From an uncultured Colwellia sp. (GTDB lineage: Bacteria; Pseudomonadota; Gammaproteobacteria; Enterobacterales; Alteromonadaceae), in assembly GCA_913058395.1 (NCBI GenBank), contig CAJXQI010000015.1:1-64000 (forward strand): a stretch of 64,000 nt of DNA, in the 5' to 3' direction. Both the position numbers and the translations under genes were made by a program. Positions 23,008 through 38,590 of this stretch are shown here, piece by piece (positions within the stretch are counted from its first letter, which is position 1; each line of letters opens with the position of its first letter). The notes under the pieces were generated by a model. The model had not been told where the DNA came from. It was given only the letters and a program-made list of their open reading frames with translations, and ran no database searches.

Positions 23008-24060
23008 TTAAAATGGGCTAGGGTATTGTCGTAATACTTGATTTATATCTTCAATAATATCGGAACTGAGCGGCTGTTCAAACGCTGCGATATTTTCGGT
23101 TAATTGCGGCATAGTTGTCGCGCCAATTATGGTTGAGGTGACTCCATTTACTTGATCACACCAAGCCAATGCCAAATGTGCTGGCGAGATATTATGTTGC
23201 TTGGCAATATCCATATAGGCCTTTACGGCTTTATCACTGTGTTGAGTATCACGAAAAAGCCCATGTCGCTGCATTAAAGTAAAGCGACTGCCCGCAGGGC
23301 GCTGTCCATTTACATACTTCCCTGTAAGCAAACCTGTTGCTAATGGTGACCAAGGTAAATAGGCAATATCTTCATGTACACAATTTTCAATTAAATAGGG
23401 CCAGTCTTTTGTGTGTAACAAGCTGAACTCATTTTGAATCGACACCATACGGGGGAGGTTGTGTTCTTTGCTCAAACGTAAGTATTGATTAATACCCCAA
23501 GGTGTATCATCTGACAGTCCACAATAGCGAATTTTTCCGGTTTTTACGCAGCTATCTAACCCTTGTAGAATATCGAGCATTTCTTCATTTTGCTGTTCAG
23601 CATTAACTTGTGTGTAGTTAGTGTTGTTTGGCCAATGATTACCGAAATGTGGTGATTGACGATTAGGCCAATGCAATTGATATAAATCGATGTAGTCGGT
23701 TTGTAAGCGTTTTAACGATGTTTCAACTGCGGCAACGACACTCGCTCCTGAAATTTTGCTACCGTCACGAATATAAGAAAAACCTGGGCCAGCAATTTTT
23801 GACGCTAAAACAATGCTTTTTCTTCGAGACGGATTGGACTTAAGCCAATTACCGATTATTGCCTCAGTTTTGCCATAAGTTTCAGCTGAAGGAGGCACTG
23901 CGTACATTTCAGCTGTATCGATAAAGTTAATACCTTGCATTTGGGCATAATCGAGCTGTGCATCAGCATCAGCTTGGTTGTTTTGTAAGCCCCAAGTCAT
24001 ACTGCCTAAGCAAATACGAGACACATCGAGCGAACTACTGCCTAATCGTTGATATTTCAT
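23008..24060 (-). CDS. Aldo/keto reductase (Tas-like)
   Basis: A 350-residue NADPH-dependent aldo/keto reductase, colinear with E. coli Tas (346 aa). It opens MKYQRLGSSSLDVSRICLGSM and carries FIDTAEMYAVPPSAETYG (catalytic Asp and Tyr), LASKIAGPG (Lys), YQLHWP (His) and the C-terminal cofactor segment TSTIIGATTMPQLTENI. It reduces carbonyls in the cytosol; the physiological substrate is unknown. It follows the aldehyde dehydrogenase gene by 40 bp on the same strand, so an aldehyde-handling operon under the TetR gene upstream is likely. Confidence 0.88.
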   Translation of the reverse strand: MKYQRLGSSSLDVSRICLGSMTWGLQNNQADADAQLDYAQMQGINFIDTAEMYAVPPSAETYGKTEAIIGNWLKSNPSRRKSIVLASKIAGPGFSYIRDGSKISGASVVAAVETSLKRLQTDYIDLYQLHWPNRQSPHFGNHWPNNTNYTQVNAEQQNEEMLDILQGLDSCVKTGKIRYCGLSDDTPWGINQYLRLSKEHNLPRMVSIQNEFSLLHTKDWPYLIENCVHEDIAYLPWSPLATGLLTGKYVNGQRPAGSRFTLMQRHGLFRDTQHSDKAVKAYMDIAKQHNISPAHLALAWCDQVNGVTSTIIGATTMPQLTENIAAFEQPLSSDIIEDINQVLRQYPSPF

Positions 24061-24100
24061 TAGCTAACCTCAGGTTATTTTTGTTCATTTAGCGCTTAAG

Positions 24101-25468
24101 CTAACGTATCCATCTTAGGAGTTTAAATTTCATCTTACTATATGGAGCAAATCTGACAGGTAAATCTTTAACAAACGGACGTGCCAGCACAGACTTCAAG
24201 TGACTAAAATTATCAAAGCCAGCTTTACCACTATATTGCCCCATGCCGCTTGGGCCTATACCGCCAAAAGGCAATTCAGGCACGGCGTTAAACATAATAA
24301 CGTCATTAATACATTGGCTACCTGAGCTTATTTCATTAACCCAAGTTTGGCATTGTTCCTTATTTTTACTAAAAATATAAGAAGATAGAGGCTTATCGCG
24401 CTCTTTGACGAAACGTTTTGCGTCATCAAAGCTATCAATAGTAATCATGGGCAATATTGCACCAAATATTTCATCCGTCATTAAAGCACTATCAAGTGGC
24501 GGGTTAAGCACAATAGTAGGGGCAATGTATTTATTTTCAATATCAACGTCTCCACCTATTTCAACATCAATATCTTTGAGGTATTGAGCAATTCTCTGAG
24601 CATGACGGGTATTAACAATACGGCCGTAACTCTTACTTTGCTTAGGATCTTTACCAAACATTTTTTCAATTTGTTTTTTTAAAGCATCAACAAGTGGTGT
24701 AACCATATCAGCAGTGGTAATAATGTAATCAGGGGCAATACAAGTTTGTCCTGCATTCATCCATTTTCCCCAAGCAATACGTTGTGCTGTTATCGTAATA
24801 TCCGTACTTTTATCAACATAAACTGGACTTTTCCCACCAAGTTCTAAGGTTACAGGTGTTAAATGTTTTGCTGCGGCAGTCATTACAATGCGCGCGACCT
24901 GGCCATTACCTGTATACATAATATGATTGAACGGTAATGATAATAGCGCAGAGGTTTCTTCAACAGCACCTTCAACAACGGAGACGGCCTGAGAATCTAA
25001 ATATTGTGGGATAAGTTTTGCTAGAAGAGTTGATGTTGCAGGTGCAAGTTCTGAAGGTTTGACGATAGCGCAGTTACCCGCAGCGAGAACAGCAACTAGT
25101 GGAGCAAGTATTAGCTGCATTGGATAATTCCATGCACCGATAATTAATACCGTTCCTTGCGGCTCTGGCTGAATATATGAACGACCTGGTTGTGCGACTA
25201 TTGGTGTGGCAACACGACGTTTTTTAGCCCAAGCACTTAAACGCTTGCAAACATGGTCAACATCACTGGTAACATAAGAAACTTCAGTGATCCAAGCTTC
25301 TTGTGCCGGCTTGCCCAAATCACTGGCAAGGGCATCAATAAAAGCTTGTTCATTGTCATTGACCAAACGTTTAATTTGTTGAAGCTGTTGCTTACGCCAT
25401 TCGAGATCGCGAGTGGAATTGCTGTTAAAAAATTGCTGGTGCTTTGGTAGTAGGTCGCTGAAATCCAC
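24101..25468 (-). CDS. Aldehyde dehydrogenase (class 3 / coniferyl-type)
   Basis: 455 residues, NAD(P)-dependent aldehyde dehydrogenase of the class 3 / coniferyl aldehyde dehydrogenase group. It shows LIIGAWNYPMQLILAPLV (cofactor binding), VTLELGGKSPVYV (general-base Glu), NAGQTCIAPDYI (catalytic Cys) and ELPFGGIGPSGMGQYSGKAGFD. The C-terminal tail with basic residues (KMKFKLLRWIR) may contact membrane, as in fatty aldehyde dehydrogenases. The GTG start at 25468 is supported by AAGGA. A FadR-like element lies 21 bp upstream, which fits oxidation of long-chain aldehydes, an inference. Confidence 0.88.
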   Translation of the reverse strand: MDFSDLLPKHQQFFNSNSTRDLEWRKQQLQQIKRLVNDNEQAFIDALASDLGKPAQEAWITEVSYVTSDVDHVCKRLSAWAKKRRVATPIVAQPGRSYIQPEPQGTVLIIGAWNYPMQLILAPLVAVLAAGNCAIVKPSELAPATSTLLAKLIPQYLDSQAVSVVEGAVEETSALLSLPFNHIMYTGNGQVARIVMTAAAKHLTPVTLELGGKSPVYVDKSTDITITAQRIAWGKWMNAGQTCIAPDYIITTADMVTPLVDALKKQIEKMFGKDPKQSKSYGRIVNTRHAQRIAQYLKDIDVEIGGDVDIENKYIAPTIVLNPPLDSALMTDEIFGAILPMITIDSFDDAKRFVKERDKPLSSYIFSKNKEQCQTWVNEISSGSQCINDVIMFNAVPELPFGGIGPSGMGQYSGKAGFDNFSHLKSVLARPFVKDLPVRFAPYSKMKFKLLRWIR

Positions 25469-25488
25469 GAAGTTTCCTTAGCTGGGTT

Positions 25489-25505
25489 AGATGGTCGGAT
25501 GACTT
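25489..25505. promoter_or_regulatory. Possible FadR-like site upstream of the aldehyde dehydrogenase gene
   Basis: AGATGGTCGGATGACTT shares the TGGTCGGATG core with the site at 20306 and differs from the FadR consensus in the third base. It lies between the TetR gene and the aldehyde dehydrogenase start. Confidence 0.35.
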
Positions 25506-25545
25506 AATTTAACCCATTTGCTAAGTTAGTACAAAACTTTAATTA

Positions 25546-26211
25546 TTATGGTTTTACTCTAATAACAATCGCTAAAGCTTGGTTTATTATACTATGTATT
25601 TTCTCGACACTTTGACTGTTATCAGCCAATAATTGACGATAACAAATTTGCTGAATTTGGGTTAATAATATTTCAGCATTTATTTCAAGATTGTCTTGGG
25701 CAAAGTATTGGCATAATTGTAAGCAGGGTTGTAATTGAGCCAAGTGATGTTCTTTTGCAATAGCTCTTAATACTGGTGTCACTTGCACTTCACTAAATAA
25801 TTGTTGCTCAACAATAAGCTGTTGATGATTATCTGTTGTATTAGTTGTTACTAATTCTACTAATAAATTTGCTATTTCAGCTCTTAACGCAACCCTTACA
25901 CTAACACGACGTAAATCAGCTTTACTCTGTTTGTCGACAAGGTCAATCGCGGGTTGCCATAAGTCGTCAACTTCACTAATTATATTGGCAGAATTTAGCT
26001 CGAAAGCTTGCTGAACTAGCTCTTGAATATCTTTAAAGTAATAAGTGGTGAGCGATAATTGAATGTTGGCATGAGAAGCTATTGCTCGATGTGTTGCACC
26101 TTTAATGCCTTGTTTCGCTAGAATTGCAATCGCAGATTCTAAAATAAGGTGTTTTGTTCTTTCGCCTTTACTACGTCTTTTTTTTATAGTTTGTTCGTTA
26201 GTTGTGGACAT
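25546..26211 (-). CDS. TetR-family transcriptional regulator
   Basis: A 221-residue one-component repressor. Residues ~15-65 are the TetR helix-turn-helix (TKHLILESAIAILAKQGIKGATHRAIASHANIQ followed by LTTYYFKDIQELVQQAF). The rest is an all-helical ligand domain without recognisable ligand signature. It is transcribed toward the aldehyde dehydrogenase and aldo/keto reductase genes, 77 bp ahead, so it may be the first gene of that unit and autoregulated. The start is ATG 26211. Confidence 0.85.
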   Translation of the reverse strand: MSTTNEQTIKKRRSKGERTKHLILESAIAILAKQGIKGATHRAIASHANIQLSLTTYYFKDIQELVQQAFELNSANIISEVDDLWQPAIDLVDKQSKADLRRVSVRVALRAEIANLLVELVTTNTTDNHQQLIVEQQLFSEVQVTPVLRAIAKEHHLAQLQPCLQLCQYFAQDNLEINAEILLTQIQQICYRQLLADNSQSVEKIHSIINQALAIVIRVKP

Positions 26212-26423
26212 TTATTCTCTACGCTTGCAGTGTCAAGTTTGTTAACTATTTGTAATGAAAGTAATTTATTGTTTTTATTTAGCAGTTACAATAATCAACA
26301 TACACTGTTTAGTTACAGTTTAGAAACAATCTTAGCAAATCTTTCGAATAAGTATAAGTAGAATTGTATTAACAGATGTAAATAAGAATTGTTCTTTCGC
26401 AATAGAAATAACAAAAAGAAATT

Positions 26424-26467
26424 GTAAAAAAACACCCATATTTTAGAATAAAATAATGAGTGTTTTA
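26424..26467 (-). terminator. Terminator of fadE
   Basis: AAAACAC (26429-26435) pairs with GTGTTTT (26460-26466), with an inner TATTTTA/TAAAATA pairing. On the minus strand the hairpin is followed by a T-run (A-run at 26426-26432), as expected for the end of the fadE transcript. Confidence 0.65.
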
Positions 26468-26495
26468 TTGAAGTATTATAATTTAGCAGTACTAG

Positions 26496-28913
26496 TTAAC
26501 CTGCTTTTAGGTAGTCCGAATCAAAATCATCTACATTAATTGTTATTTTTCTTTTGATTTCAGTGGCAATTAACAAGTCAGCTTCTTCTTGACTAATAAT
26601 ATTTGCTGATAAACCTTTTTCTGCAACAATATCAAGGTTGTAGAATGGCAGCTTTTCACCAAGTTCGCGACAAATCTTATCAAATATAGGCTCACAAGTA
26701 ATGATGTCTTCTAGGGTTTGCTCTAATTGCCCCAATACGTTTTCAGGCTCTCTGGTTAAATACTGACCTTGGCCCAAGCGAGTACGGCTTTCATTATGGT
26801 ATTGCATTAATTTAGCCACTTTATGATCGGTAGCATCCGATGGCTTTTTCAAATTACAACCTAGTGGTAAAATGATTGCTGTTAGCATTTTTGCAACTAT
26901 CTTATTCGGAAAGTTACTAATCAATTCACTGATTGCTTGCTGAATATTATAAAGGCTGTCTTCAAGTGCCCACTGTAAAAAAGGTAAATCAGCACTTTGA
27001 CGACCTTCATCGTTATAGCGCTTTAATGTTGCAGAGGCTAAATATAGGAAGCTTAAAATATCGCCAAGTCGAGCAGAAATACGTTCACGACGCTTTAAAT
27101 CTCCGCCTAGTGTCAACATTGCAATATCTGATAGCATGGCTAAGTTAGAGCTAAAGCGAGTCATTAACTGATAGTAACGTCTTGTTTCATCGTTGTAAGG
27201 TGCACTAAGCGCGTAACTACCGGTGAACGAAAACCAAACGCTGCGACAGATATTACTAATGGCGAAACCGACATGGCCAAACAGAGCATGGTCGAAATCG
27301 TTCAATGCTTGCTGTTCATCTTCATTATTTGCTGCGGCTAACTCAGCTAAAACGTAAGGATGACAACGAATGGCACCTTGGCCGTAAATAATCATACTAC
27401 GGGTAAGAATATTTGCGCCTTCAACGGTTATAGCAACGGGTGCGCCTTGGTAACCACGAGCGATATAGTTACCCGGTCCCATACAAACCCCTTTACCGCC
27501 ATGAATATCCATAGCATCGGCAACACAGTTGCGCATTTTTTCGGTTAAGTGATACTTTGAGATAGCTGATATAACACTTGGTTTTTCGCCTAAATCGATT
27601 GCACCTGTCGACATAGTCGTCACTGCATCCATCAAGTATGCATTACCACCAATTCTTGCTAACGCTTCTTCAACACCTTCCATTTTACCAATTGAAATTT
27701 TAAATTGACGACGAATTCTACTGTATGCACCTGTTGCTAAAGCAAGTGACTTAATACCACCAGCACTGTTTGATGGCAGGGTGATTGCACGACCTACAGA
27801 TAAACATTCAACGAGCATGCGCCAACCTTGACCAGCCATTTCTGGGCCACCAATAATGAAGTCTAATGGCACAAAGACGCCATCACCTTGGGTTGGACCA
27901 TTTTGAAAGGGTACGTTCAGTGGAAAGTGTCGGCGGCCAGTAATTACACCATCAATATCAGTTGGTATTAAGGCACATGTGATACCTAAGTCTTCCTGTT
28001 CACCTAGCAAGTGATCAGGATCTTGCAGTTTAAAGGCTAAGCCTAATACGGTCGCAACAGGTGCTAAGGTAATATAACGCTTATTCCATGTTAGGCGCAT
28101 GCCTAATACTTCTTCTCCGTTAAACTCACCACGACAAACAATGCCGAAATCGGGAATAGCGCCGGCATCTGAACCAGCTTCAGGGCTTGTTAAGGCAAAA
28201 CAGGGAATTTCGTCACCTTTAACTAACCTTGGCAGGTAGTGATCTTGCTGTTCTTTAGTACCATAGTGTTGTAGTAATTCACCAGGGCCCAATGAATTTG
28301 GTACACCAACGGTTGATGACAATACGCTACTAACACTAGAAAGCTTTTGTAAAACACGTGATTGAGCATAGGCACAAAACTCTAATCCGCCATATTGCTT
28401 TTTAATGATCATAGCAAAGAATTTATTATCTTTTAAATACTGCCATACCTCAGGCGATAAATCGGCAAGTTCATGTGTTGTTTGCCAATCATCAGTCATA
28501 CGACATACTACTTCGACAGGGCCGTCTAAGAACGCTTGTTCTTCTGGGCTCAGGCGAGGCTTAGGATAGTTATGCAGCTTTTTCCAATCAGGTGTGCCAC
28601 GAAATAATTCTGCTTCAAACCAAGTGGTGCCAGCGTCAATTGCTTCTTGTTCAGTATTTGACATTTCTGGCATGATACCTTTAAAGATAGTCAGTAATGG
28701 CTTCGTGATATATTGTTTACGAATATCAGCAACATTGAGTGGTATTGCGATAACGGCAAATAGAATCCATGAGAAAAAAGATATTACTTGGAAAAATGTT
28801 CCGACAACCATAAGTATGGTAAATGATACCGTAAATGAAGCGAGCGAGGCTCTTGAATAGGCCATAAACCCGCATAATGCGATGGCAATTAATGCCCAAG
28901 TTAAATAGTCCAC
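26496..28913 (-). CDS. fadE: Acyl-CoA dehydrogenase FadE
   Basis: 805 residues, close to the 814 of E. coli FadE and with the same layout: two N-terminal membrane helices (~4-22 and ~28-60), then the acyl-CoA dehydrogenase core with [18 protein letters not shown], the FAD block [16 protein letters not shown] and [18 protein letters not shown], and a long helical C-terminal DUF1974 region (~520-800). It catalyses the first oxidation of beta-oxidation at the inner membrane. The start is GTG 28913 with AAGGA upstream. A FadR-like operator lies 39-55 bp ahead. In E. coli fadE also neighbours yafJ; here a 4.2-kb island sits between. Confidence 0.96.
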
Positions 28914-28951
28914 AAATTTTCCTTAATGTTGATGTTTAGCGTAAGTTACGC

Positions 28952-28968
28952 TCGAGGTCAGACCAGAT
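28952..28968 (-). promoter_or_regulatory. FadR-like operator of fadE
   Basis: On the minus strand the bases read ATCTGGTCTGACCTCGA, matching ANCTGGTCNGACNNGNT at nearly every fixed position. It sits 39 bp upstream of the fadE GTG, where FadR repression is expected. Confidence 0.7.
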
Positions 28969-29063
28969 TGATTGTTTAAGCTTAATTCGTATTGTGAATA
29001 ATTTCAAATTATTTATTGCCAATCTCTTCCCGCAGTAAAGTGTACTTTGTTTTGGGGCTTAGA

Positions 29064-29086
29064 AAGTGTGTGAATTAATGGCGATG
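29064..29086. repeat. Left direct repeat of the island (copy of the yafJ 5' end)
   Basis: AAGTGTGTGAATTAATGGC (29064-29082) is identical to 33307-33325; after one mismatched base, ATG matches again, giving 22 of 23 identical. The repeat contains a GTG start and the codons for MCELMAM, the N-terminus of YafJ. Here the frame runs on for only ~20 unrelated codons to a stop near 29149. It is interpreted as the left attachment-site copy of the inserted island. Confidence 0.75.
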
Positions 29087-29211
29087 TCAAATATAAATAT
29101 GTCTTCGGCCCACATTTTGTCAAAGTCTAACTCATTACTATCTCTATAAATTTATTTTAGCTCCTCTATCATTTCAGCTTTATGTCCTTATATTTTTTGG
29201 GATATAAGCGG

Positions 29212-29871
29212 TTAAAAATCAATTACATCTTTTAGCTGCTCATTTAGGAATGTATCTTCCAGAACATGCCATTTCCAAAAAACTGCAAACGGATAATCGT
29301 CTTGTATCATTACAGTCAAACGTTCCTTCGCAGCTAACTTCTCGGAAGGGGTATACATTTTCTTTTTTAGGATTAAACGATATTGCTGAAATTCAACGTG
29401 TAAATTAAATATAATATCCATTAGCACTACACGTGTAATACCTCTTAAAGGCGTATTTTTTTCGTTATAGCAAAGATGGATAAGCTCCGCAGTATTTTGT
29501 GATTGAACGTCATCTTGAAGAGCTGTTACCGATATGTCCGCTGTATCAATGATACTTGGTAGTAAACATTTTATTTTTTTAAAGACATCAATATTAACAT
29601 CACAACAATCTAATAAGTTCGTGTGTGCAACACCTTTTATGCTGTTACATCGACTACATGCATAAAATAAATTGCCCCAGTCATATTTTTTCGCGTCATC
29701 ACCCTTGTGTGGATCGAAATGCTCAATTTCAGGATCTAAAAGAGAATCTCTTTCACATAAATAACATTTGCCATGAAACATAGGCTCTAAAATATCAACG
29801 ACTTCTTGAGTGTTGTATTGGTTAGAATTTAGGCAGTCTGGGGCTTTTGCGATTCTATCTACATTAAACAT
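29212..29871 (-). CDS. ptuB: Septu-like HNH endonuclease (PtuB)
   Basis: 219 residues. The HNH zinc-finger nuclease lies at ~30-85: CYLCERDSLLDPEIEHFDPHK supplies the first CxxC pair and the His of the beta-beta-alpha-metal core, and WGNLFYACSRCNSIKG supplies the Asn and second CxxC. The C-terminal ~120 residues are helical. Its start overlaps the stop of the ATPase gene by 1 nt (TAATG), so the two are coupled. An ATPase plus HNH pair of these sizes is the composition of the Septu anti-phage system, in which PtuB is the DNA-cutting effector. The identification is by architecture and motifs. Confidence 0.7.
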   Translation of the reverse strand: MFNVDRIAKAPDCLNSNQYNTQEVVDILEPMFHGKCYLCERDSLLDPEIEHFDPHKGDDAKKYDWGNLFYACSRCNSIKGVAHTNLLDCCDVNIDVFKKIKCLLPSIIDTADISVTALQDDVQSQNTAELIHLCYNEKNTPLRGITRVVLMDIIFNLHVEFQQYRLILKKKMYTPSEKLAAKERLTVMIQDDYPFAVFWKWHVLEDTFLNEQLKDVIDF

Positions 29872-31337
29872 TATTCTTCTTCCATGTCTGCTAGAATGTT
29901 TGCCCCTTGCAAATAGAACGACTTTTCTCGGCTATTTAATTTGTCAAATAAAGGTTCTATAGAGTCGATTAATTCTTGTAGCGAACCATGATTAACATCA
30001 GTTGCATTCATCACATCAGAAAGGTTCTTAAACTTTTCATCTAATATTAGGGAAGTGGGCTTTATGCCTAGTATTCCCTCTAAAACTGCAGAATACGAAT
30101 AAAATGAAAGGTCTTCATCTATTTGAGCGTTCTTCTCAACATCAAAAATAACGGCATCGTTTACCGACATAAGTACAAACGGTGAATGCGTCGAAACAAT
30201 AAATTGTGCATTAGGAAACAAACTTGAAAGAAATGGTAAAACTTTTCGTTGTAATGACGCGTGTAAGTGAACATCAATTTCATCAATAACAACGAAGCCT
30301 GCAATGGTTTGAGGAGTGTATTCTGATACTTCTGTTTGCATTAATAGCTCAACAAATACAGATAGAATTGCGGAGTAACCTGATGATAAATCTCTGAAAG
30401 AAAATCGTTTTTTACCCGTTTGTATAATTTCGTAGTTAAGTGTGTCGTCGTTAAACTCTATTTCTGTTGAATCATCATCCAAAAGAACTTTCAGTGATTC
30501 AACAAATTGTTTTTTCCATATAGCTAAATCTTGTGATACTGAATCATCTTGTTTTTGCGCTCTCAAAGCACTCTTAACTTCCCAGTTAGCTAAAAATTTC
30601 TCGAGTAATGAACCGGCATTTGAATTTCTACCTTGGTGAATTTGCTGTTTTATATTCAGTTTTTCTTGTTCCAATGAGCCAATGTTATGAACTTGTTCAA
30701 ACGATGAATGCCTATTTGCATTGAAGAAAAGACTTAATGTTACCCCTTTCTCTGAATCAACAGCATTGTTATCGTAATTGATATCGATATGTTTAATTGT
30801 TTTCTGAGCAGAATTTATTTCTGATAGGGAACATTGTTGTTGCAAGCTCTCATTATTATGTGATACTTCCTGTTCATAAGCAGCATTTATTGGAGCTAAA
30901 TCGTTTTCCAGCTTATTAGGAGAAATGTCATTTTGAAGTGTTCTAATTCTCCGCTCTATAGCAATTATTTCGCTTTGAATTTCTTCTCTTTCAACTGAAT
31001 TTAAATTAAGTTGGCTCAACATCATATTGTTATTCATTAAGTTTTTATTTTCTGCATATATCATATCCAGCGTATGCAATTTTTGTTGTTCAAACATTTT
31101 AGTAGCGAAAAATATATCTTGTTGTAAACTTTTTTTTCTATGCTCTTCATTATTTTTAATGTTTAGAAATGTAGATCTATAATTATGAGCATTACTCAAT
31201 ATTTCAAATATTGATTCTAAAAGTTGAGTTTTACCACAGCCATTTTTACCTGTAACAATAAGGTCCTTTCCGCTTAAAATAATTTCAATCTTCTTTTCTG
31301 TGTAAGGAATAATTCCATTTATCTTTGCAATGCGCAT
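29871..31337 (-). CDS. ptuA: Septu-like AAA/ABC-type ATPase (PtuA)
   Basis: 488 residues, SMC/RecF-like ATPase. Walker A is VTGKNGCGKTQLLES (~30-45); a coiled coil and insertion span ~90-300 (KNLMNNNMMLSQLNLN.., EREEIQSEIIAIERRIRTL); the signature motif is RDLSSGYSAILSVF, Walker B FVVIDEIDVHLHA, and the H-loop VSTHSPFVL. These features and the partnered HNH gene fit PtuA of Septu, which binds ATP and holds PtuB in a complex until phage infection. ATG 31337 is chosen because AGGA lies 7 nt ahead; the ATG at 31343 is only 1 nt from it. A three-membrane-helix protein gene lies 120 bp upstream on the same strand. Confidence 0.72.
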   Translation of the reverse strand: MRIAKINGIIPYTEKKIEIILSGKDLIVTGKNGCGKTQLLESIFEILSNAHNYRSTFLNIKNNEEHRKKSLQQDIFFATKMFEQQKLHTLDMIYAENKNLMNNNMMLSQLNLNSVEREEIQSEIIAIERRIRTLQNDISPNKLENDLAPINAAYEQEVSHNNESLQQQCSLSEINSAQKTIKHIDINYDNNAVDSEKGVTLSLFFNANRHSSFEQVHNIGSLEQEKLNIKQQIHQGRNSNAGSLLEKFLANWEVKSALRAQKQDDSVSQDLAIWKKQFVESLKVLLDDDSTEIEFNDDTLNYEIIQTGKKRFSFRDLSSGYSAILSVFVELLMQTEVSEYTPQTIAGFVVIDEIDVHLHASLQRKVLPFLSSLFPNAQFIVSTHSPFVLMSVNDAVIFDVEKNAQIDEDLSFYSYSAVLEGILGIKPTSLILDEKFKNLSDVMNATDVNHGSLQELIDSIEPLFDKLNSREKSFYLQGANILADMEEE

Positions 31338-31457
31338 GCTCATTTCCTGATTGGCTTATGAAGGTTTTATAAATATTAAGGGGGCTTCACTGTTTTTATT
31401 TTTTCGTTAGTTTTGTTACCAGTGATATCAATTGTTCATTCATTGTAATACAGCAAC

Positions 31458-32453
31458 TTATTTGAGCTCAACTGCTTGCTTAATAGCAAAATTTTGTAAG
31501 TCTTCTACTACTAACTGCTCGTTTATGGTTCTAAATTTACCACCTACGTCTATATATTTCATTTCTTCAGTTAATTGTAAATTATGACCAATACCAGAAA
31601 AGTCGCATAAATTTATATAATAAGATTTAGCAATTCTATAAGCTGCGACTAACTCATCAGTTGTTGTGCCTATTGTTAATAAAGACTCTGTCTCAGGTTG
31701 CTTTTGCAACTTAACAGGAACCAAAACACCTTTATTAGCTAAATCAATATAGATTTCTTGAATACCTAGCTTTTCAGAAAGACGAAACAACGTACTACAT
31801 GCGCCTAGGTAAGATGATAATGTCATGTCGCTATTTACATCACGTATTACTCTATCGATTGCCCACCTAGCACTTGTTAGTTCTGATTCAATATCATTAA
31901 AAGCTTCCTCTATAGGAGCGGGCAAACCATCTTTAGGCGAGCCTTTGAAAAAATTACGATGTAACCTAGGGTGAATTCGAAACTTAACTTTTACACAATC
32001 TAAGAAATCTGTTTCCCCAATTTGCTCATAATATGCAAATAATTCTTGTCTATGAGAACGGTACGTATCTAAGTTGTTTTTATATGAAACGATCTCTATT
32101 TGCTTAGCTGATTGTTCCGTAGAATGTAGTCGGCTAACTAATACAGATAATGGAATTGCCAATGATAACAATGCCAAAGGTAATACAGATATAGTTATAA
32201 ATTTATTAAAGCCAATAGCTGTAAGATCTATATCAAAACCTTGCCAAGCGAAGTAACCTATGGAGAAAAAATAGTACACTGGGGATAAGATAGCTAACCA
32301 AAGTAAACCTTGTTTGACTAAGCCTAGTTCCGGGTGCAATGTTAAAGAAAACTTAATTTTATCGCATAAATGATTGCCACGTGCGAAGATAATTAACACA
32401 GTAATAAGTGCTAGAATAAAAGGGGCAATAACCAAAATCAATAATTGCATCAT
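31458..32453 (-). CDS. Unknown three-TM membrane protein in the defence island
   Basis: 331 residues. Three hydrophobic segments (~2-24, 48-70, 82-106) anchor a mostly helical cytosolic region (~110-331), with motifs such as FKGSPKDGLPAPIEEAFNDI and RTINEQLVVEDLQNFAI. I recognise no named family. It is on the same strand as ptuA-ptuB, 120 bp upstream of ptuA, and lies inside the same direct-repeat-bounded island, so it may be a third component, a regulator or a separate cargo gene. AGGAG lies 12 nt before ATG 32453. An attC-like hairpin is found 23 bp upstream. Confidence 0.65.
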   Translation of the reverse strand: MMQLLILVIAPFILALITVLIIFARGNHLCDKIKFSLTLHPELGLVKQGLLWLAILSPVYYFFSIGYFAWQGFDIDLTAIGFNKFITISVLPLALLSLAIPLSVLVSRLHSTEQSAKQIEIVSYKNNLDTYRSHRQELFAYYEQIGETDFLDCVKVKFRIHPRLHRNFFKGSPKDGLPAPIEEAFNDIESELTSARWAIDRVIRDVNSDMTLSSYLGACSTLFRLSEKLGIQEIYIDLANKGVLVPVKLQKQPETESLLTIGTTTDELVAAYRIAKSYYINLCDFSGIGHNLQLTEEMKYIDVGGKFRTINEQLVVEDLQNFAIKQAVELK

Positions 32454-33308
32454 ACTTCTGAGTTATCTCCTGCTGCATAACGCCCTGTTAAGGGGAAAAT
32501 TATAGTTGGCTAAAATGTGAAGCGGAGTGGAACCAGCTAACTGTAATTTGTCCCGCTTGAACAGCTTATTATGTAGACGTCTTAGTAATATCCATCTACT
32601 TGACTACGAGATAAAATACTCCAATTTCTTTTAATTTCAAGCTCTTATTGTCCATATTATCGATGTTGTCTATGATGTTCTTCGAGTATTAGTGAGGTTT
32701 CACACTAGTAATATGAAGGCTTTCCTATATAACTTGTTTAAATTCAGGTTCTTATGCGGTATTTTTTCTAAAAGATGTGTGTTGCTGCTAATTCTCAGTA
32801 ATACACAAAACTTTGATTTTAATCATAAAAGAGGAAGGAGTGTTACAGGCTATTAAGCGCTTTTGATTTCAGTCGCGTTTGACGTTGATTGATATCGGCT
32901 TTCGATAACAGGGCGCAGGCCTTTAAGGATGATTTTTCCGTAATCGTCAAACAGCTTTTACTATCACTTTTTGGTGTAAATCAGTTTAAATGACAAAACA
33001 TTAATAATGAGTCACCAACCGTTTTAATAAACTTTTCTTCGTGCTCTGCTTACGCATGTTACTCTGTTCTAATAGATCAAATACTAACATAAGGCATGTC
33101 TGACAAGGAATTTAAATGGTGTTTAATATGCATTAAATAATTAAAATCTAAGATGAATTAATGTAAATACAATAGTAAAATAATTTCATGTAAAGTTAGT
33201 ACAAACAAACAAACAAACAATTAATTTTATTTTCTATTATCGTTACTGACGCTTTGTAGTTTTATTATTATGTTTGTGTAACCTATTAAAAAATCGGGTG
33301 TTTTATAA
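32454..33308. other. Gene-poor right part of the island
   Basis: 855 bp without a convincing gene. It holds the attC-like hairpin (32476-32573), a short minus-strand coding-like remnant at 32853-32957 (KLFDDYGKIILKGLRPV, then a stop), and an ACAA microsatellite at 33201-33220. No integrase, reverse transcriptase or RNA gene was seen. The last ~200 bp must now supply the promoter for yafJ. Confidence 0.5.
32476..32573. other. attC-like imperfect hairpin
   Basis: A 98-nt palindrome: CATAA, CTGTT, AAG, GGG and AAATTATAGTTGGCT on the left pair with TTATG, AACAG, CTT, CCC and AGCTAACTGTAATTT on the right. There are three unpaired G on the right arm (32550, 32555, 32559) and a 4-nt unpaired spacer near the base. 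The left end ATAACGCCCTGTTAAGGGG is what I know from Vibrio-type integron attC sites; the right end (TTATTATG) departs from the expected GCGTTATG. It may be a decayed or divergent cassette recombination site. Confidence 0.4.
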
Positions 33309-33329
33309 GTGTGTGAATTAATGGCCATG
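33307..33329. repeat. Right direct repeat of the island, at the yafJ start
   Basis: This is the second copy of the 23-bp repeat (see 29064), one mismatch. It starts 2 nt before the GTG start of yafJ and covers its first seven codons. The sequence to its right is the intact yafJ gene, so this is the right junction. Confidence 0.75.
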
Positions 33330-34112
33330 AGTGCCAATGTACCAACAGATATTTGTTTTAGTTTTAGTGGTTTAATGCAGCGTGGTGGTAATACTGGGCC
33401 GCATAAAGATGGTTGGGGCATTACTTTCTATGAAGGTAAGGGCTGTCGCAGCTTTAAAGACCCACTACCCAGTGCGCATTCACCTATTGCGAAACTCGTA
33501 ACAGACTATCCCATTAAAAGTGAAACGGTTGTTTGTCATATCCGACAAGCTAACTCAGGTGAAATTTCATTAGTGAACACTCATCCGTTTATTCGTCCAA
33601 TGTGGGGAAAAAACTGGACTTACGCGCATAATGGTCAGTTAGCTGATTTTAAAGATAAATTAAAAATAAGATATCACTTACCTGTCGGCGAAACGGATAG
33701 TGAACATGCTTTTTGTTGGTTATTAGATCAATTATTGTTGAAGTTTGATGGTGAAGAACCAAATACAGAAGTACTGTTTGATTATATTGTTGAGCAATGC
33801 AGAGAAATTAACAAGTTGGGCGTATTTAATTTATTACTAACCGATGGTGACAATTTATTTGTTTATTGCGCTAATAAATTACACTGGTTAACCCGCCGTG
33901 CGCCATTTGGTAAGGCAAGCTTGATTGATGCTGAGATGGTGGTGAATTTTGATCAAGAAACAACCGAGAACGATATTGTTACTGTGATTGCAACGCAACC
34001 GTTAACTGATGATGAAACTTGGAAGAAAATGCAACCAGGAGAAGGGTTATTGTTTAGTAAAGGACAATTGATTTGTGAAAGCCAGCTTGATGAAACTATA
34101 TTTTGTAGGTGA
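33309..34112 (+). CDS. yafJ: Class II glutamine amidotransferase YafJ
   Basis: A 267-residue class II (Ntn-type) glutamine amidotransferase domain protein, colinear with E. coli YafJ. The catalytic Cys2 directly follows the GTG start (MCELMAMSANVPTD), which fixes the start. Other family blocks are QRGGNTGPHKDGWGI, VCHIRQANSGEIS, NWTYAHNGQL and PVGETDSEHAFCW. It lacks a synthase domain, so the acceptor is unknown. The gene is intact, but its first seven codons are one copy of the island's direct repeat, meaning its promoter region now comes from the island. Confidence 0.93.
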   Translation: MCELMAMSANVPTDICFSFSGLMQRGGNTGPHKDGWGITFYEGKGCRSFKDPLPSAHSPIAKLVTDYPIKSETVVCHIRQANSGEISLVNTHPFIRPMWGKNWTYAHNGQLADFKDKLKIRYHLPVGETDSEHAFCWLLDQLLLKFDGEEPNTEVLFDYIVEQCREINKLGVFNLLLTDGDNLFVYCANKLHWLTRRAPFGKASLIDAEMVVNFDQETTENDIVTVIATQPLTDDETWKKMQPGEGLLFSKGQLICESQLDETIFCR

Positions 34113-34114
34113 TG

Positions 34115-34882
34115 CTATTTGCTAGCTGATTCTTTAGTGTCAATAATATCAACAGATTCTAACTGGGCTTCAAATTGTTCAACATCACCTTTGATTTGAT
34201 AAAGCTTTACTAAAAGATAATCAAGCTCAGGAGCAAACCACGCATAAGTAATACGTTTTTTCTCAACCACTTCACGTTTAAATTTAACTGTTTTTACTAA
34301 ACCATATGGCAGCATGATTTCTTCTTCGCCATCATATTGATAGACGTAATTTTTCAGTGAGCCAGATGATTTTATGACAGGATAAACAAATTGCTTTTGT
34401 TCAGGCTTACTTATTAAGTTAAGGCGATGTTGTAGGTGATAGCTTAGTGAGTCTTGAATGTTATCAGGAAAATCTATGGTTTTAGTTTTGTTCTTCTTTT
34501 CATCAGTTGCAGTACCGTTAGCAGTGTCGTAACTCCACTCATAGTACTTATCTCGACCAGTACCTTCGCGCTTGAAAACATAGTTTGTTGGCGTAACTTT
34601 ATTACCGTTAAGCTTAACAGTAGAGGTTTCATCACGAGTATCCGAAAAAATTAGCCACTCAATATCAGTATGGTAGCTATATTTCGCCATGCCATTGTCT
34701 AAATAACTAAGTTTACGTGTGGCTTTACCTACGGATTTAGAGCTGCGTAAAATAGTGTAATTTGCATTAAATGCAGGAACCATTACCTTGCTTGTTTGAT
34801 CTGTTGCCTGAGCAAAAGATGTGGAACTGAACAATGTTAAAGTAGAAGCTAACAATGTGACATAAGGTAATGATTTCAACAT
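34115..34882 (-). CDS. DUF3108-domain periplasmic protein
   Basis: 255 residues with a signal peptide (residues ~1-24, ending SFA). The mature part is beta-rich, with FNANYTILRSSKSVGKATRKLSY, the WLIFSDTRDETST block and PDNIQDSLSYHLQHRLNL, the pattern of DUF3108. This family often follows purN in Alteromonadales, as here (23 bp after purN), though it has no known purine role; envelope function is likely. Its 3' end is 2 bp from the yafJ stop (convergent). Confidence 0.8.
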   Translation of the reverse strand: MLKSLPYVTLLASTLTLFSSTSFAQATDQTSKVMVPAFNANYTILRSSKSVGKATRKLSYLDNGMAKYSYHTDIEWLIFSDTRDETSTVKLNGNKVTPTNYVFKREGTGRDKYYEWSYDTANGTATDEKKNKTKTIDFPDNIQDSLSYHLQHRLNLISKPEQKQFVYPVIKSSGSLKNYVYQYDGEEEIMLPYGLVKTVKFKREVVEKKRITYAWFAPELDYLLVKLYQIKGDVEQFEAQLESVDIIDTKESASK

Positions 34883-34905
34883 ATAAAATTCTCTAAAAAT
34901 AAGGT

Positions 34906-35550
34906 CTATTCTTCGCTAGCATACCCTGAAATTGGTAAAATCACACCATCAAACATTGCATTTTCACCAGTCATGGTGACACGTTTACTACAACACCAAT
35001 TGACCACAAGCGGGTAAATACGGTGCTCTTGTTGGTGAACGCGCTGTGCAAGGTCTTCAGCAGTGTCTTCAGGGAATACAGGCACTTTAGCTTGTAAGAC
35101 CACAGGACCGCCGTCAAGTTCCTCAGTAACAAAATGAACGCTAACACCATGCTCACTATCGCCAGCGTCAATTGCTCGCTGATGAGTATGTAATCCTTGG
35201 TATTTAGGTAGAAGAGAAGGGTGTATATTGATTAAACGACCTTGGTAAGTTTGCACAAACTTAGGTGTTAATATACGCATAAAGCCAGCAAGCACGACAA
35301 GATCAGGTTGATAGTTATTAATCTCAGTGATGAGAGCACTATCGTAATCTTCACGGCTATCGAAGTCTTTATGTGAGAGCACTGCGGTTGCAATATCTGC
35401 GTCTTGTGCTCGTGTTAATCCATATGCGTCAGCTTTATTAGAAACTACGGCGACAACTTCACCGCCATAGTTTTCTTGCTTACAGGCGTCAATAATCGCC
35501 TGTAAGTTTGTGCCGCCGCCGGAAATGAGTACTACAATTCGGCTTCGCAT
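34906..35550 (-). CDS. purN: Phosphoribosylglycinamide formyltransferase
   Basis: A 214-residue GAR transformylase: it moves the formyl group from 10-formyltetrahydrofolate to GAR in step 3 of purine synthesis. It has the GAR-binding start VVLISGGGTNLQAIIDA, LAGFMRILTP, the catalytic NIHPSLLPKYQGLHTH (Asn, His) and HFVTEELDGGPV (Asp). It begins 6 bp after the purM stop, so the two genes form the standard purMN operon, with the DUF3108 gene third. Confidence 0.97.
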   Translation of the reverse strand: MRSRIVVLISGGGTNLQAIIDACKQENYGGEVVAVVSNKADAYGLTRAQDADIATAVLSHKDFDSREDYDSALITEINNYQPDLVVLAGFMRILTPKFVQTYQGRLINIHPSLLPKYQGLHTHQRAIDAGDSEHGVSVHFVTEELDGGPVVLQAKVPVFPEDTAEDLAQRVHQQEHRIYPLVVNWCCSKRVTMTGENAMFDGVILPISGYASEE

Positions 35551-35556
35551 GGTTAA

Positions 35557-36603
35557 TTAACCTTTATTGATAATAACTTGTTCTTGGCCAGCTTGTAGGT
35601 CAGCAATTTCACCAATATGCCAAGCATTTTCACCGTGAGCAGTTAAAATATCAATACTCTGTGCTACAGCATCTGCTGGAACAACGATGATCATACCAAC
35701 ACCACAGTTAAAGGTGCGGTACATTTCATGCTCAGTGATGTTGCCGTTTTCTTTAAGCCAGTTAAAAATTTCTGGCCACTGCCAGCTATTACCGTCAACA
35801 ATTGCTTGAGCGCTTTCTGGCAATACGCGAGGAATGTTTTCCCAAAAGCCACCACCAGTAATATGCGATAATGCATGAACATCAACTTGTTTAAGCAGTT
35901 CTAATACTGATTTAACATATATTTTAGTTGGTTCGATTAAATGGTCACCAATTGATTTGCCATTTAGTAATTCGTTAGTGTCAGTATTGTTAACTTCTAA
36001 TACTTTACGAATTAAAGAGAAACCGTTTGAATGAGCACCTGAAGAAGCTAAGGCAATAAGTTGATCGCCAGCCGCTACTTTTGTTCCGTCAATAACGCGA
36101 GATTTTTCTGCTACACCAACACAAAAACCAGCAATGTCGTAATCGCCTTTGTGATACATACCTGGCATTTCGGCTGTTTCACCACCAACTAAAGCACAAC
36201 CTGAAAGTACACAACCATCGGCAATTCCTGAAACAACTGCAGAAGCTACGTCAACGTCTAGTTTATCTGTTGCGTAGTAATCAAGGAAAAATAAAGGTTC
36301 AGCACCTTGAACAATTAAGTCATTAACACACATTGCTACTAAGTCGATACCAACCGTATCATGCTTTTGTAAATCGATGGCTAAACGTAGTTTTGTACCT
36401 ACGCCATCGGTACCAGCAACAAGTACAGGTTCTTTATAACCCGTTGGAAGTTGGCAGATTGAGCCAAAACCACCTAGCCCCCCCATAACTTCTGGACGAG
36501 TAGTACGTTTTACCGCACCTTTAATATTTTCAACTAGGGCATTACCTGCATCTATATCAACGCCAGCATCTTTATAACTTAAAGACTGTTTTTCTTCGCT
36601 CAC
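35557..36603 (-). CDS. purM: Phosphoribosylformylglycinamidine cyclo-ligase
   Basis: 348 residues, AIR synthetase, step 5 of purine synthesis: ATP-dependent ring closure of FGAM. The usual blocks are present: [66 protein letters not shown] and [18 protein letters not shown]. The GTG start at 36603 has a good GAGG 7 nt upstream. It leads the purM-purN-DUF3108 operon and is divergent from the DUF2066 gene. No PurR operator was obvious in the 143-bp gap. Confidence 0.97.
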
Positions 36604-36746
36604 GGGGAAACCTCAATTATGTTAGTTAAGTAGCTTGTATATTAATGGCGCACATTCTACCAGTGCAAAGACGTGCTGAAAATCTTTAAAAGAAATTATT
36701 TTTTATAAGTGATAAAAATCAGCAACATTATGATAAGATCTTTATT

Positions 36747-37868
36747 ATGAAACACTTGTTAAAGCCATATATGTTCAGAAATTGTCTGATTCTCTTAATT
36801 TTTATACTGTCGTTTAGAATTAACGCTATCGAAGTAGAAAACTTATACAGTGCGAAAGTATTAGTGACGTCGCAATCAGCAGGCGATCGCGATAAAGCGC
36901 TTAAAAAAGCACTTCGTGGTGTCATCATGAAAGTTGGTGGCAAGAAAATTGAACATCCGTTAGTTTCCCAAGCAATAAAAAATCACAACAAGTACGTTAA
37001 TCAGTATCAATATCTTCGTAATAATAATGCTACTTACTTAAATGTTTCTTTCAATGAAGAAAAAATTAACAATTTATTCAAGCAAAGTGATTTAGCCATT
37101 TGGGGACGCTTACGCCCTCAAGTGATGATTTGGGTGGTTGAAGAAAATGGTTTTGAGCGTAAATTGCTTTCTTCAACGTCAAACTCTCTGATACCGCAAT
37201 CGATTGATGAATTTTCACAAAAGCGTGGTTTACCATTAACGATGCCGATTATGGATTTAACCGATTTATCTGCGCTAACCATTACCGATGTTTGGGGACG
37301 CTTTGCTTATCCTGTAGCACAAGCATCTGCACGATATTTAGCAGAAGCAGTGGTGGTTCTTAGAATTTCAGATAATAGCTTAATTGCTCAACAAAATGAA
37401 AACAGCGATTGCCAGCCACTTTGTCAAACAGAGCTATTAGTTTTAGATTGGAGCTTGATGGCCGATGCACAAGACGAACGTTCACAAGTATTTAGTGGGC
37501 AGTATCAAGGTGATGATGTTTTGTTAATGTTGAATGAAGCGCTGGCTGATATCACTGATATTATTTATCAGCAATATGCTTTATCAACGACGAATAGTAA
37601 TGAACTTCAAATTGATGTTGCCAATATTGCTTCTTTGGAAGAGTTAATTGCAGTTTCTGACTTTCTTGCTGAATTATCTGCGGTTGAGTCTGTGCAATTA
37701 GTGAGTGTGCAAGGGACAAATCATCGTTTTAAATTGTCACTACTTGGGTCACAACAATCCTTGCTTGCATCGTTAAAGTTAAGTGAAGAATTAAATCGCT
37801 ATATTGACCCATTGGCCGTTCCGATAGGAAAAGATCAAGTTGCGGTGTTTTATTGGGGAGAAAAATGA
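36747..37868 (+). CDS. DUF2066-domain protein
   Basis: 373 residues with an N-terminal hydrophobic signal segment (~12-27, MFRNCLILLIFILSFRINA region). The body shows LYSAKVLVTSQSAGDRDKALKKALRGVIMKVGG and PQVMIWVVEEN, typical of DUF2066 proteins, which sit between purM and hda in many gammaproteobacteria. The likely location is periplasmic or membrane-anchored; the function is unknown. Its stop overlaps the hda start (ATGA at 37865), so translation is coupled. Confidence 0.85.
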   Translation: MKHLLKPYMFRNCLILLIFILSFRINAIEVENLYSAKVLVTSQSAGDRDKALKKALRGVIMKVGGKKIEHPLVSQAIKNHNKYVNQYQYLRNNNATYLNVSFNEEKINNLFKQSDLAIWGRLRPQVMIWVVEENGFERKLLSSTSNSLIPQSIDEFSQKRGLPLTMPIMDLTDLSALTITDVWGRFAYPVAQASARYLAEAVVVLRISDNSLIAQQNENSDCQPLCQTELLVLDWSLMADAQDERSQVFSGQYQGDDVLLMLNEALADITDIIYQQYALSTTNSNELQIDVANIASLEELIAVSDFLAELSAVESVQLVSVQGTNHRFKLSLLGSQQSLLASLKLSEELNRYIDPLAVPIGKDQVAVFYWGEK

Positions 37869-38590
37869 AAAAAGTATCCCAATTAACTTTGTCAGTGCAA
37901 TTACCTGATGATGAAACCTTTGATAGCTTTCAGAGTGAAAGTAGTCAATTGGTGGTTCAGCAGCTTAAACACTACTTAAAGCACGTTTCTGAGCCTACCC
38001 AAGAACACAATAAGAAAGTACACAGCTTATATTTATTTGGTCTTACTGGTGTCGGTAAAAGTCACCTGTTGCACGCAAGTTGTGTGTACGCTGATACATT
38101 AGGCATGACTAGCCTATGTTTGTCGTTTTCTGAGCTAACTCAACTATCAGTTGATGTGCTTGAAGGGCTAGAGAATATTGATTTAGTTTGTCTTGACGAT
38201 ATTCAGTTGATTGCTGGCAATAAAGAGTGGCAACAAGCAGTTTTTGATTTATATAATCGTATGATTGAGCAAAATAAATGTTTGATTATTACCGGTGACC
38301 AAAGTGTTGCAGAATTAAAAATAACCTTACCAGATTTGGTTTCCCGTTTAAGTTGGGGATTAACTGAGCAACTTAAGCCATTAACAGATAAAGAAAAGTC
38401 TTTTGCTTTACAGTATCGTGCACAGCAACGTGGGTTATTTATCAGTGATGATGTCGCAAGCTTTTTAATTAATAGATTATCACGTGATATGACGAGTTTA
38501 CTTGCAGCATTAGAACAGTTAGATCAGGCCTCAATTAGGGAACAGCGACGCATCACTATTCCCTTTGTAAAAGATATTCTTTTCAATTAA
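37865..38590 (+). CDS. hda: DnaA regulatory inactivator Hda
   Basis: A 241-residue AAA+ protein that, bound to the sliding clamp, stimulates ATP hydrolysis by DnaA to prevent re-initiation (RIDA). The clamp-binding motif QLTLSV is at residues 5-10, Walker A is GLTGVGKSHLL, Walker B VCLDDIQLI, and the arginine finger region is LVSRLSWGL. The start is ATG 37865, which overlaps the DUF2066 stop and has GGGGAG upstream; an upstream TTG would put the clamp motif further inside. Confidence 0.93.
   Translation: MKKVSQLTLSVQLPDDETFDSFQSESSQLVVQQLKHYLKHVSEPTQEHNKKVHSLYLFGLTGVGKSHLLHASCVYADTLGMTSLCLSFSELTQLSVDVLEGLENIDLVCLDDIQLIAGNKEWQQAVFDLYNRMIEQNKCLIITGDQSVAELKITLPDLVSRLSWGLTEQLKPLTDKEKSFALQYRAQQRGLFISDDVASFLINRLSRDMTSLLAALEQLDQASIREQRRITIPFVKDILFN

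Follow-up and report, generated by a model that had tools for sequence, protein, structure and literature searches.

Septu genes and an integron attC site between duplicated yafJ starts in a Colwellia genome, at a probable attachment site of phage integrases

The window analyzed here comprises the first 64,000 nucleotides of contig CAJXQI010000015.1 from an assembly of an uncultured Colwellia sp. (GCA_913058395.1), and its features between fadE and yafJ are collected in Table 1. A 23-bp direct repeat, AAGTGTGTGAATTAATGGC[G/C]ATG, bounds 4.2 kb of DNA with a ptuA/ptuB pair, whose GC content (0.328) is lower than that of the 64-kb window (0.373). Outside both repeat copies, identity ends abruptly on either side. 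Both copies, when read in frame, begin M(GTG)-C-E-L-M-A-M, and a full-length yafJ gene (267 aa) follows the right copy only; the repeat, the shared start and the place of the full gene had been noticed earlier from the letters of the window and were confirmed. Allowing up to three mismatches, the repeat occurs in only two places in the whole assembly (4.39 Mb, 43 contigs). The left copy has GCG, as does the empty site of a close relative described below (G014), and the right copy has GCC, which places the presumed exchange point to the right of that base. The bases following the repeat also differ (TCA versus AGT). Both differences are expected of one exchange at or beside the ATG.

Table 1. 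Features of the fadE–yafJ region in the window
Feature	Position	Strand	Evidence
fadE, left chromosomal neighbour	26496..28913	-	NCBIfam FadE_coli, 1483 bits
Ancestral fadE–yafJ intergenic flank	28914..29063	.	28880-29086 87% identical to G014 empty site
Left repeat (attL-like), putative displaced original yafJ start	29064..29086	+	22/23 to right copy; GCG
ptuB, Septu HNH protein	29212..29871	-	PADLOC PtuB 1.2e-78; Pfam HNH above cut-off; phrog_16204 2.6e-60
ptuA, Septu ATPase	29871..31343	-	PADLOC PtuA 1.1e-104; phrog_9802 1.1e-50
331-aa ORF, first gene after attC	31458..32453	-	Open frame; N-terminal part hydrophobic by eye
Integron attC, reads towards 331-aa gene	32477..32574	-	105.1 bits, E 7.5e-26 (covariance model)
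Gene-poor DNA, attC to right repeat	32575..33306	.	First 82 bases 78% identical to L336 (G000:C17)
Right repeat (attR-like), present yafJ start	33307..33329	+	GCC; yafJ continues in frame
yafJ, class II glutamine amidotransferase family	33309..34112	+	Open frame; GATase_4 2.8e-107

The assignment of the two leftmost insert genes to PtuA and PtuB, made in the earlier note without database searches, was borne out by the PADLOC models. As in other Septu systems, the ATPase and HNH genes adjoin, overlapping here at position 29871; unlike in Septu, a 331-aa gene precedes them. PtuA matched solved structures of retron Ec83/Ec78 ATPases and PtuA chains (best E value 8.1e-14), and PtuB had no solved-structure match at E 0.01. 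NCBIfam models for retron PtuA and PtuB matched the pair below their cut-offs only. Both proteins also hit phage families to which no function is assigned (phrog_9802 and phrog_16204), so genes of the ptuA/ptuB type occur in phages; searches found no ptuA relatives in viral contigs and only distant, partial matches in plasmid and phage records. In an E. coli Septu system that has been tested, the ATPase of PtuA is reported to be needed, and so is the HNH motif of PtuB (PMC13096335). If the Septu of the window works as the E. coli system does, the island would provide phage defence.

The 331-aa ORF had been described as an unknown membrane gene. No Pfam, PADLOC or NCBIfam family matched its product at E 0.001, in agreement with the first part of this description; the word "membrane" goes back to hydrophobic stretches seen by eye. 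Residues 41-147 match phrog_17460, a family of unknown function (9.6e-21), distant partial relatives are present in 18 of 294 other family genomes, and no match was found in phage records.

The DNA to the right of this ORF, called gene-poor in the earlier note, indeed has few genes but is not featureless: an attC site, and with it the integron layer of the insert, had been missed. The site lies 23 bp before the start of the 331-aa gene. Its R'' box, ACATAAT, deviates from the usual AAC by one change, and its R' box, GTTATGC, ends at 32475. Its hairpin folds with a z-score of -2.8. The covariance model that scores it was trained on 41 rows with the window site among them; the identity of the site to its best copies in other genomes (92.9-95.7%) is support independent of the model. 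When positions 32454-33306 were used as a query, 222 of 395 family genomes were matched, and nearly all of the matches listed cover one stretch of ~98 bp. We extracted 42 attC sites, 72-100% identical to that of the window and with TAAC...GTTA-type ends, and aligned 41 of them, leaving out one site of L307. Pairing holds in 96.0% of cells across the 40 distinct rows, and both partners vary in 15 of the 28 pairs, a level that none of 500 shuffles attained. At locus L310, six attC sites alternate with ORFs, and in G423 an integron integrase (TIGR02249, 474 bits) adjoins such sites. The window's own genome has at least 59 attC matches at E 0.001 (150 of 2,685 candidates were scored). These were seen to cluster on separate contigs (C39, C33, C5, C31, C7, C3, C1 and others); no integron integrase was found in those attC surroundings that were searched, and none was recognised by eye among the ORFs of 24000-38000. 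The L336 stretch that resembles the start of the gene-poor DNA lies beside another attC of the same genome. The insert DNA matched eight plasmid records, mostly in the attC stretch.

A search of 28500-34000 with filters off returned one strong attC, a second match (19.8 bits) being its reverse strand, and neither edge of the insert had an attC. Behind ptuB, a candidate site that looked plausible by eye was rejected by both its fold (z 0.06) and the model, and the model gave no match to a supposed remnant of such a site in the interval from the 331-aa gene to ptuA. As the cargo bears an attC, the Septu genes were probably acquired through an integron cassette array.

The YafJ search matched 81 of 98 genomes. 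In the closest relative, G014 (97% YafJ identity), fadE is followed by 150 bp and then by GTGTGTGAATTAATGGCGATGAGTGCC. When the window flanks were joined (29086|33330) and compared with this region, 414 identities were obtained over 450 aligned bases, with 36 mismatches, 5 gap positions and no gap at the join. On this alignment, G014 has the empty site of the window insert that the earlier note had predicted for relatives, and it is the single close relative to show it. In the tree, the window and G014 form one clade (100/100), whose sister group (99/99) consists of the 14 further genus members included. Relatives that lack the ATPase/HNH genes yet carry two repeat copies, or an ancestral gap of the length and content seen in the window, had been named as observations that would speak against insertion. 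Exactly one copy was found by pattern in 15 of 16 other same-genus genomes, whose fadE–yafJ gaps measure 150-626 bp versus 4.4 kb in the window; the sixteenth, G007 (66% complete), has zero copies of the yafJ-start pattern. The 14 sister species (L005-L018) account for the longer gaps (306-626 bp) and have a conserved promoter-like motif in them; this motif faintly resembles the yafJ start. More widely, fadE lies upstream of yafJ in 25 of 29 relatives and within 270 bp of it in 55 of 71 other family relatives, compared with 150 bp in G014.

A pattern for the YafJ start matched 111 of the 395 family genomes, and the surroundings were read in 110 (all but G021). Four of them lacked yafJ, which left 106 loci, with fadE out of reach in seven. 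A second yafJ start is present in five: the window, G352, G361, G268 and G421, where the two copies are on separate contigs. Six other gaps exceed 1 kb and have no second start better than shuffles. This pattern misses other spellings, such as MCELLGM, and Pseudoalteromonas sp. H105 (G178) was found through its integrase only.

The tyrosine recombinases that had been anticipated next to yafJ in relatives were found at yafJ 5′ ends. In Colwellia, Pseudoalteromonas, IMG/VR proviruses and phage PY3, integrases adjoin a yafJ-like start, in most cases with fadE as a neighbour. In G421, one contig carries fadE, a decoy yafJ start and a tyrosine integrase with an Arm-DNA-bind_3 domain, and on another contig a head-protein homologue (phrog_240) and phage-end DNA precede yafJ. 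In UViG 3300027845_000432, a series of baseplate, tail and head genes leads up to yafJ, and its end and that of G421, both running into yafJ, are 73% identical over 1,246 bp. Contig 3300003691_000008 shows the other side, namely fadE, a decoy start, a full integrase and a tail protein. Both sides are joined in G178, where fadE, decoy and integrase are followed ~34 kb on, on the same contig, by baseplate genes and yafJ. The isolated Pseudoalteromonas phage vB_Psp_PY3 has a yafJ-like start (MCELLGM) in front of an integrase that is 51% identical to that of 3300003691_000008. Decayed sites, with broken integrase pieces between decoy and yafJ, are found in Colwellia psychrerythraea GAB14E (G361), G268 and G352.

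The search for integrase relatives in genome contigs found 134, of which 80 were kept; eight of these are at least 50% identical over the best segment, the remainder at most 29%. Seven of the eight close loci adjoin fadE and a yafJ start, which is intact by pattern in four and altered in three, and the eighth (L192) has no yafJ start. Viral contigs contributed 28 integrase loci, 16 of them at ≥50% identity. Nine of the 16 begin at the integrase and are uninformative on the site; among the seven with upstream sequence, five show a yafJ start by pattern, L283 begins inside the start, and the upstream sequence of L284, which has the same layout as L283, was left out of the start count. Judged by location, the yafJ 5′ end is thus strongly supported as an attachment site of this putative clade of phage tyrosine integrases. 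The L192 integrase (Colwellia sp. DT_20) and that of L163 (G040) belong to the same clade, have phage-end-like sequence in front and lack a yafJ start; perhaps they mark another attachment site or a free form.

Inside the window insert, no such machinery was found, as the earlier note had stated for the integrase: tblastn gave no match to an integrase piece in 29064-33329 at E 10. The three large ORFs contain neither a phage structural gene nor a transposase by the scans used, blastn against phage ends gave short matches at chance level only, and no cos-like sequence was found by pattern. A phage remnant inside the insert was therefore rejected. With the N-terminal part of the yafJ-type integrase as a query, the window's genome had no match at E 0.01, and an alignment-based search of it gave one distant match (29 bits).

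Two layers are present in the window: one, an attachment site, is shared with a phage clade, and the other, of integron type, lies within the cargo. We consider it likely that a site-specific element entered at the yafJ 5′ end, that cassette-derived Septu genes came with it or later, and that the integrase and phage genes were then lost. The attachment site would be about 20-23 bp at the yafJ 5′ end, with ATGTGTGAaTTanTgGCnATG as its core. Recombination there would displace the old yafJ start codons next to fadE, and the incoming DNA would supply yafJ with a rebuilt start and upstream region. The 4.2-kb insert would then occupy this site, its cargo (the 331-aa gene, ptuA and ptuB) lying directly behind the attC and probably taken from a cassette array. 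In the most likely order of events, a prophage or satellite entered yafJ, Septu DNA arrived with it or later, and the integrase and phage genes disappeared. As the insert has no machinery in place, the site and the repeat are the grounds on which we infer that such an integrase brought it in, and the course of recombination and the sequence of events are reconstructed in the same manner. The earlier proposal of site-specific integration thus holds in that the site behaves like the prfC and dusA sites, and falls short in that the insert bears no integrase or phage trace. Several observations count against the phage-type account: the insert has no integrase pieces, whereas the decayed sites of G361, G268 and G352 keep them, and no cos-like sequence or phage-end similarity above chance; the genome has no close yafJ-type integrase; the L192 integrase lacks a yafJ start; the empty site is seen in a single close relative; and the integron layer offers the cargo a separate route of arrival. 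It is also conceivable, although we think it quite improbable, that an integrase-less Septu satellite squats at the phage site and uses the yafJ integrase of prophages in trans. Such a satellite would move with prophages, occupy their landing site and defend the cell against phages.

The integron layer could also account for the insertion itself, if an integron integrase had put cassettes into the fadE–yafJ gap by recombining attC with a secondary genomic site and the 23-bp repeat were a separate matter. The 105-bit attC, the cassette orientation of the genes, the attC matches (at least 59) on many contigs of the genome and the Septu-like pair that follows an attC array in G007 all fit this explanation. 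However, the repeat coincides with the site that a different integrase clade uses, 28500-34000 has a single strong attC and none at the insert edges, and cassette insertion is not known to copy 23 bp of its target, so we regard this origin as unlikely. A transposon-type insertion with a 23-bp target duplication would likewise leave direct repeats around DNA of lower GC content. It appears highly improbable, since the three large ORFs of the insert include no transposase, the differences between the copies are explained by exchange with incoming DNA, and integrases use the same place elsewhere.

Another explanation starts from an ancestor with two yafJ-like starts, between which Septu entered by whatever means, G014 having shed the intervening DNA through recombination of the two repeats. 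The longer gaps of the 14 sisters and their conserved motif can be read this way: nowhere in the 64-kb window does the motif match better than at the left copy and its tail (17.3 bits; members score 35-52), and the score of the 12-base tail of this copy is reached by only 0.5-0.8% of positions. A profile of the motif also has its best window match at the left copy (E 0.33), followed by the yafJ start itself (0.84). On the other hand, when the first 25 motif columns are taken, the right copy, that is, the yafJ start, scores 16.5, little less than the 17.6 of the left copy, and profiles of the sister tail and right end had no match at the window junctions among the best ~12 hits each. The sister gaps contain no second start clearly better than shuffles (0.05-0.90), and for 55 of the 71 other family relatives the gap is no longer than 270 bp, comparable to the 150 bp of G014. 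The motif matrix, profile searches and shuffles did not support a two-copy ancestor, the motif and tail matches remain, and we hold this history, too, to be unlikely.

Entry at a phage-integrase site, our preferred reading, has parallels among known elements. SXT/R391 elements insert at the prfC 5′ end and restore the gene. The window insert resembles them in both respects; unlike such an ICE, it has no integrase and no transfer or conjugation genes recognised in the ORF list or by family scans. Integron cassettes, and attC clusters without an integrase, are also known kinds, and the insert shares with them the attC, a gene read away from it and the many attC sites in the genome. Unlike cassette arrays, with two or more attC sites and an integron integrase nearby, it has one attC, none behind ptuB and no integron integrase recognised nearby, and its outer ends are the yafJ repeats. 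Islands and prophages that integrate at dusA substitute their own sequence for its 5′ end (Farrugia et al. 2015, PMC4482086). The dusA systems are like the yafJ site in that tyrosine integrases are linked with the 5′ end of a single protein gene, the incoming DNA brings a new 5′ end and upstream region, and prophages and islands share a site with direct repeats of ~21 bp. By this comparison, dusA-type islands are the nearest known kind, the differences being the gene, yafJ, and an insert without an integrase. CIMEs, integrase-less elements flanked by att sites (PMC7563491), are similar in having att-like repeats at both ends and cargo only, with no recombination or transfer genes recognised. 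They are, as defined there, of conjugative or mobilizable origin, of which the insert keeps no remnant, and its relatives at yafJ look like phages. With those relatives the window shares the yafJ 5′ end duplicated around the insert; no integrase was found beside its fadE-proximal copy (tblastn of 29064-33329 at E 10), and no structural genes or conserved right-end sequence were found in the insert.

In the open-access papers searched, yafJ is mentioned for other reasons, and no description of it as an integration site was found, in line with what the earlier note had supposed. The yafJ gene would add another protein-gene 5′ end to the known kinds of integration site, and a putative clade of integrases, an isolated phage and an empty site are at hand for it. 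Integron-type defence cargo inside a phage attachment site may point to an exit route from integrons and to spread with phage-type elements.

Some smaller observations were made along the way. The decayed sites L092 and L102 have two small ORFs in common (~82-100 aa and 169 aa) between the integrase pieces and yafJ, and the 169-aa one is hydrophobic by eye. The G421 contig ends (L078, L079) carry what looks like sequencing adapter sequence. The closest ptuA relative of the window (57%) lies with its ptuB in G189 (L075, 7313-9426), beside glmS as read by eye, a gene next to which Tn7-type elements commonly insert. In the same-genus genome G007, the ptuA/ptuB-like pair (L076, 7691-11422) immediately follows the last attC detected in a cassette array, at a distance of 82 bp, and does not reach the cut-offs of the NCBIfam PtuA and PtuB models. 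No attC was found behind the pair, and no dusA repeat was found around the array (G007:C11:20001-75000). The next gene is dusA, itself a known island site.
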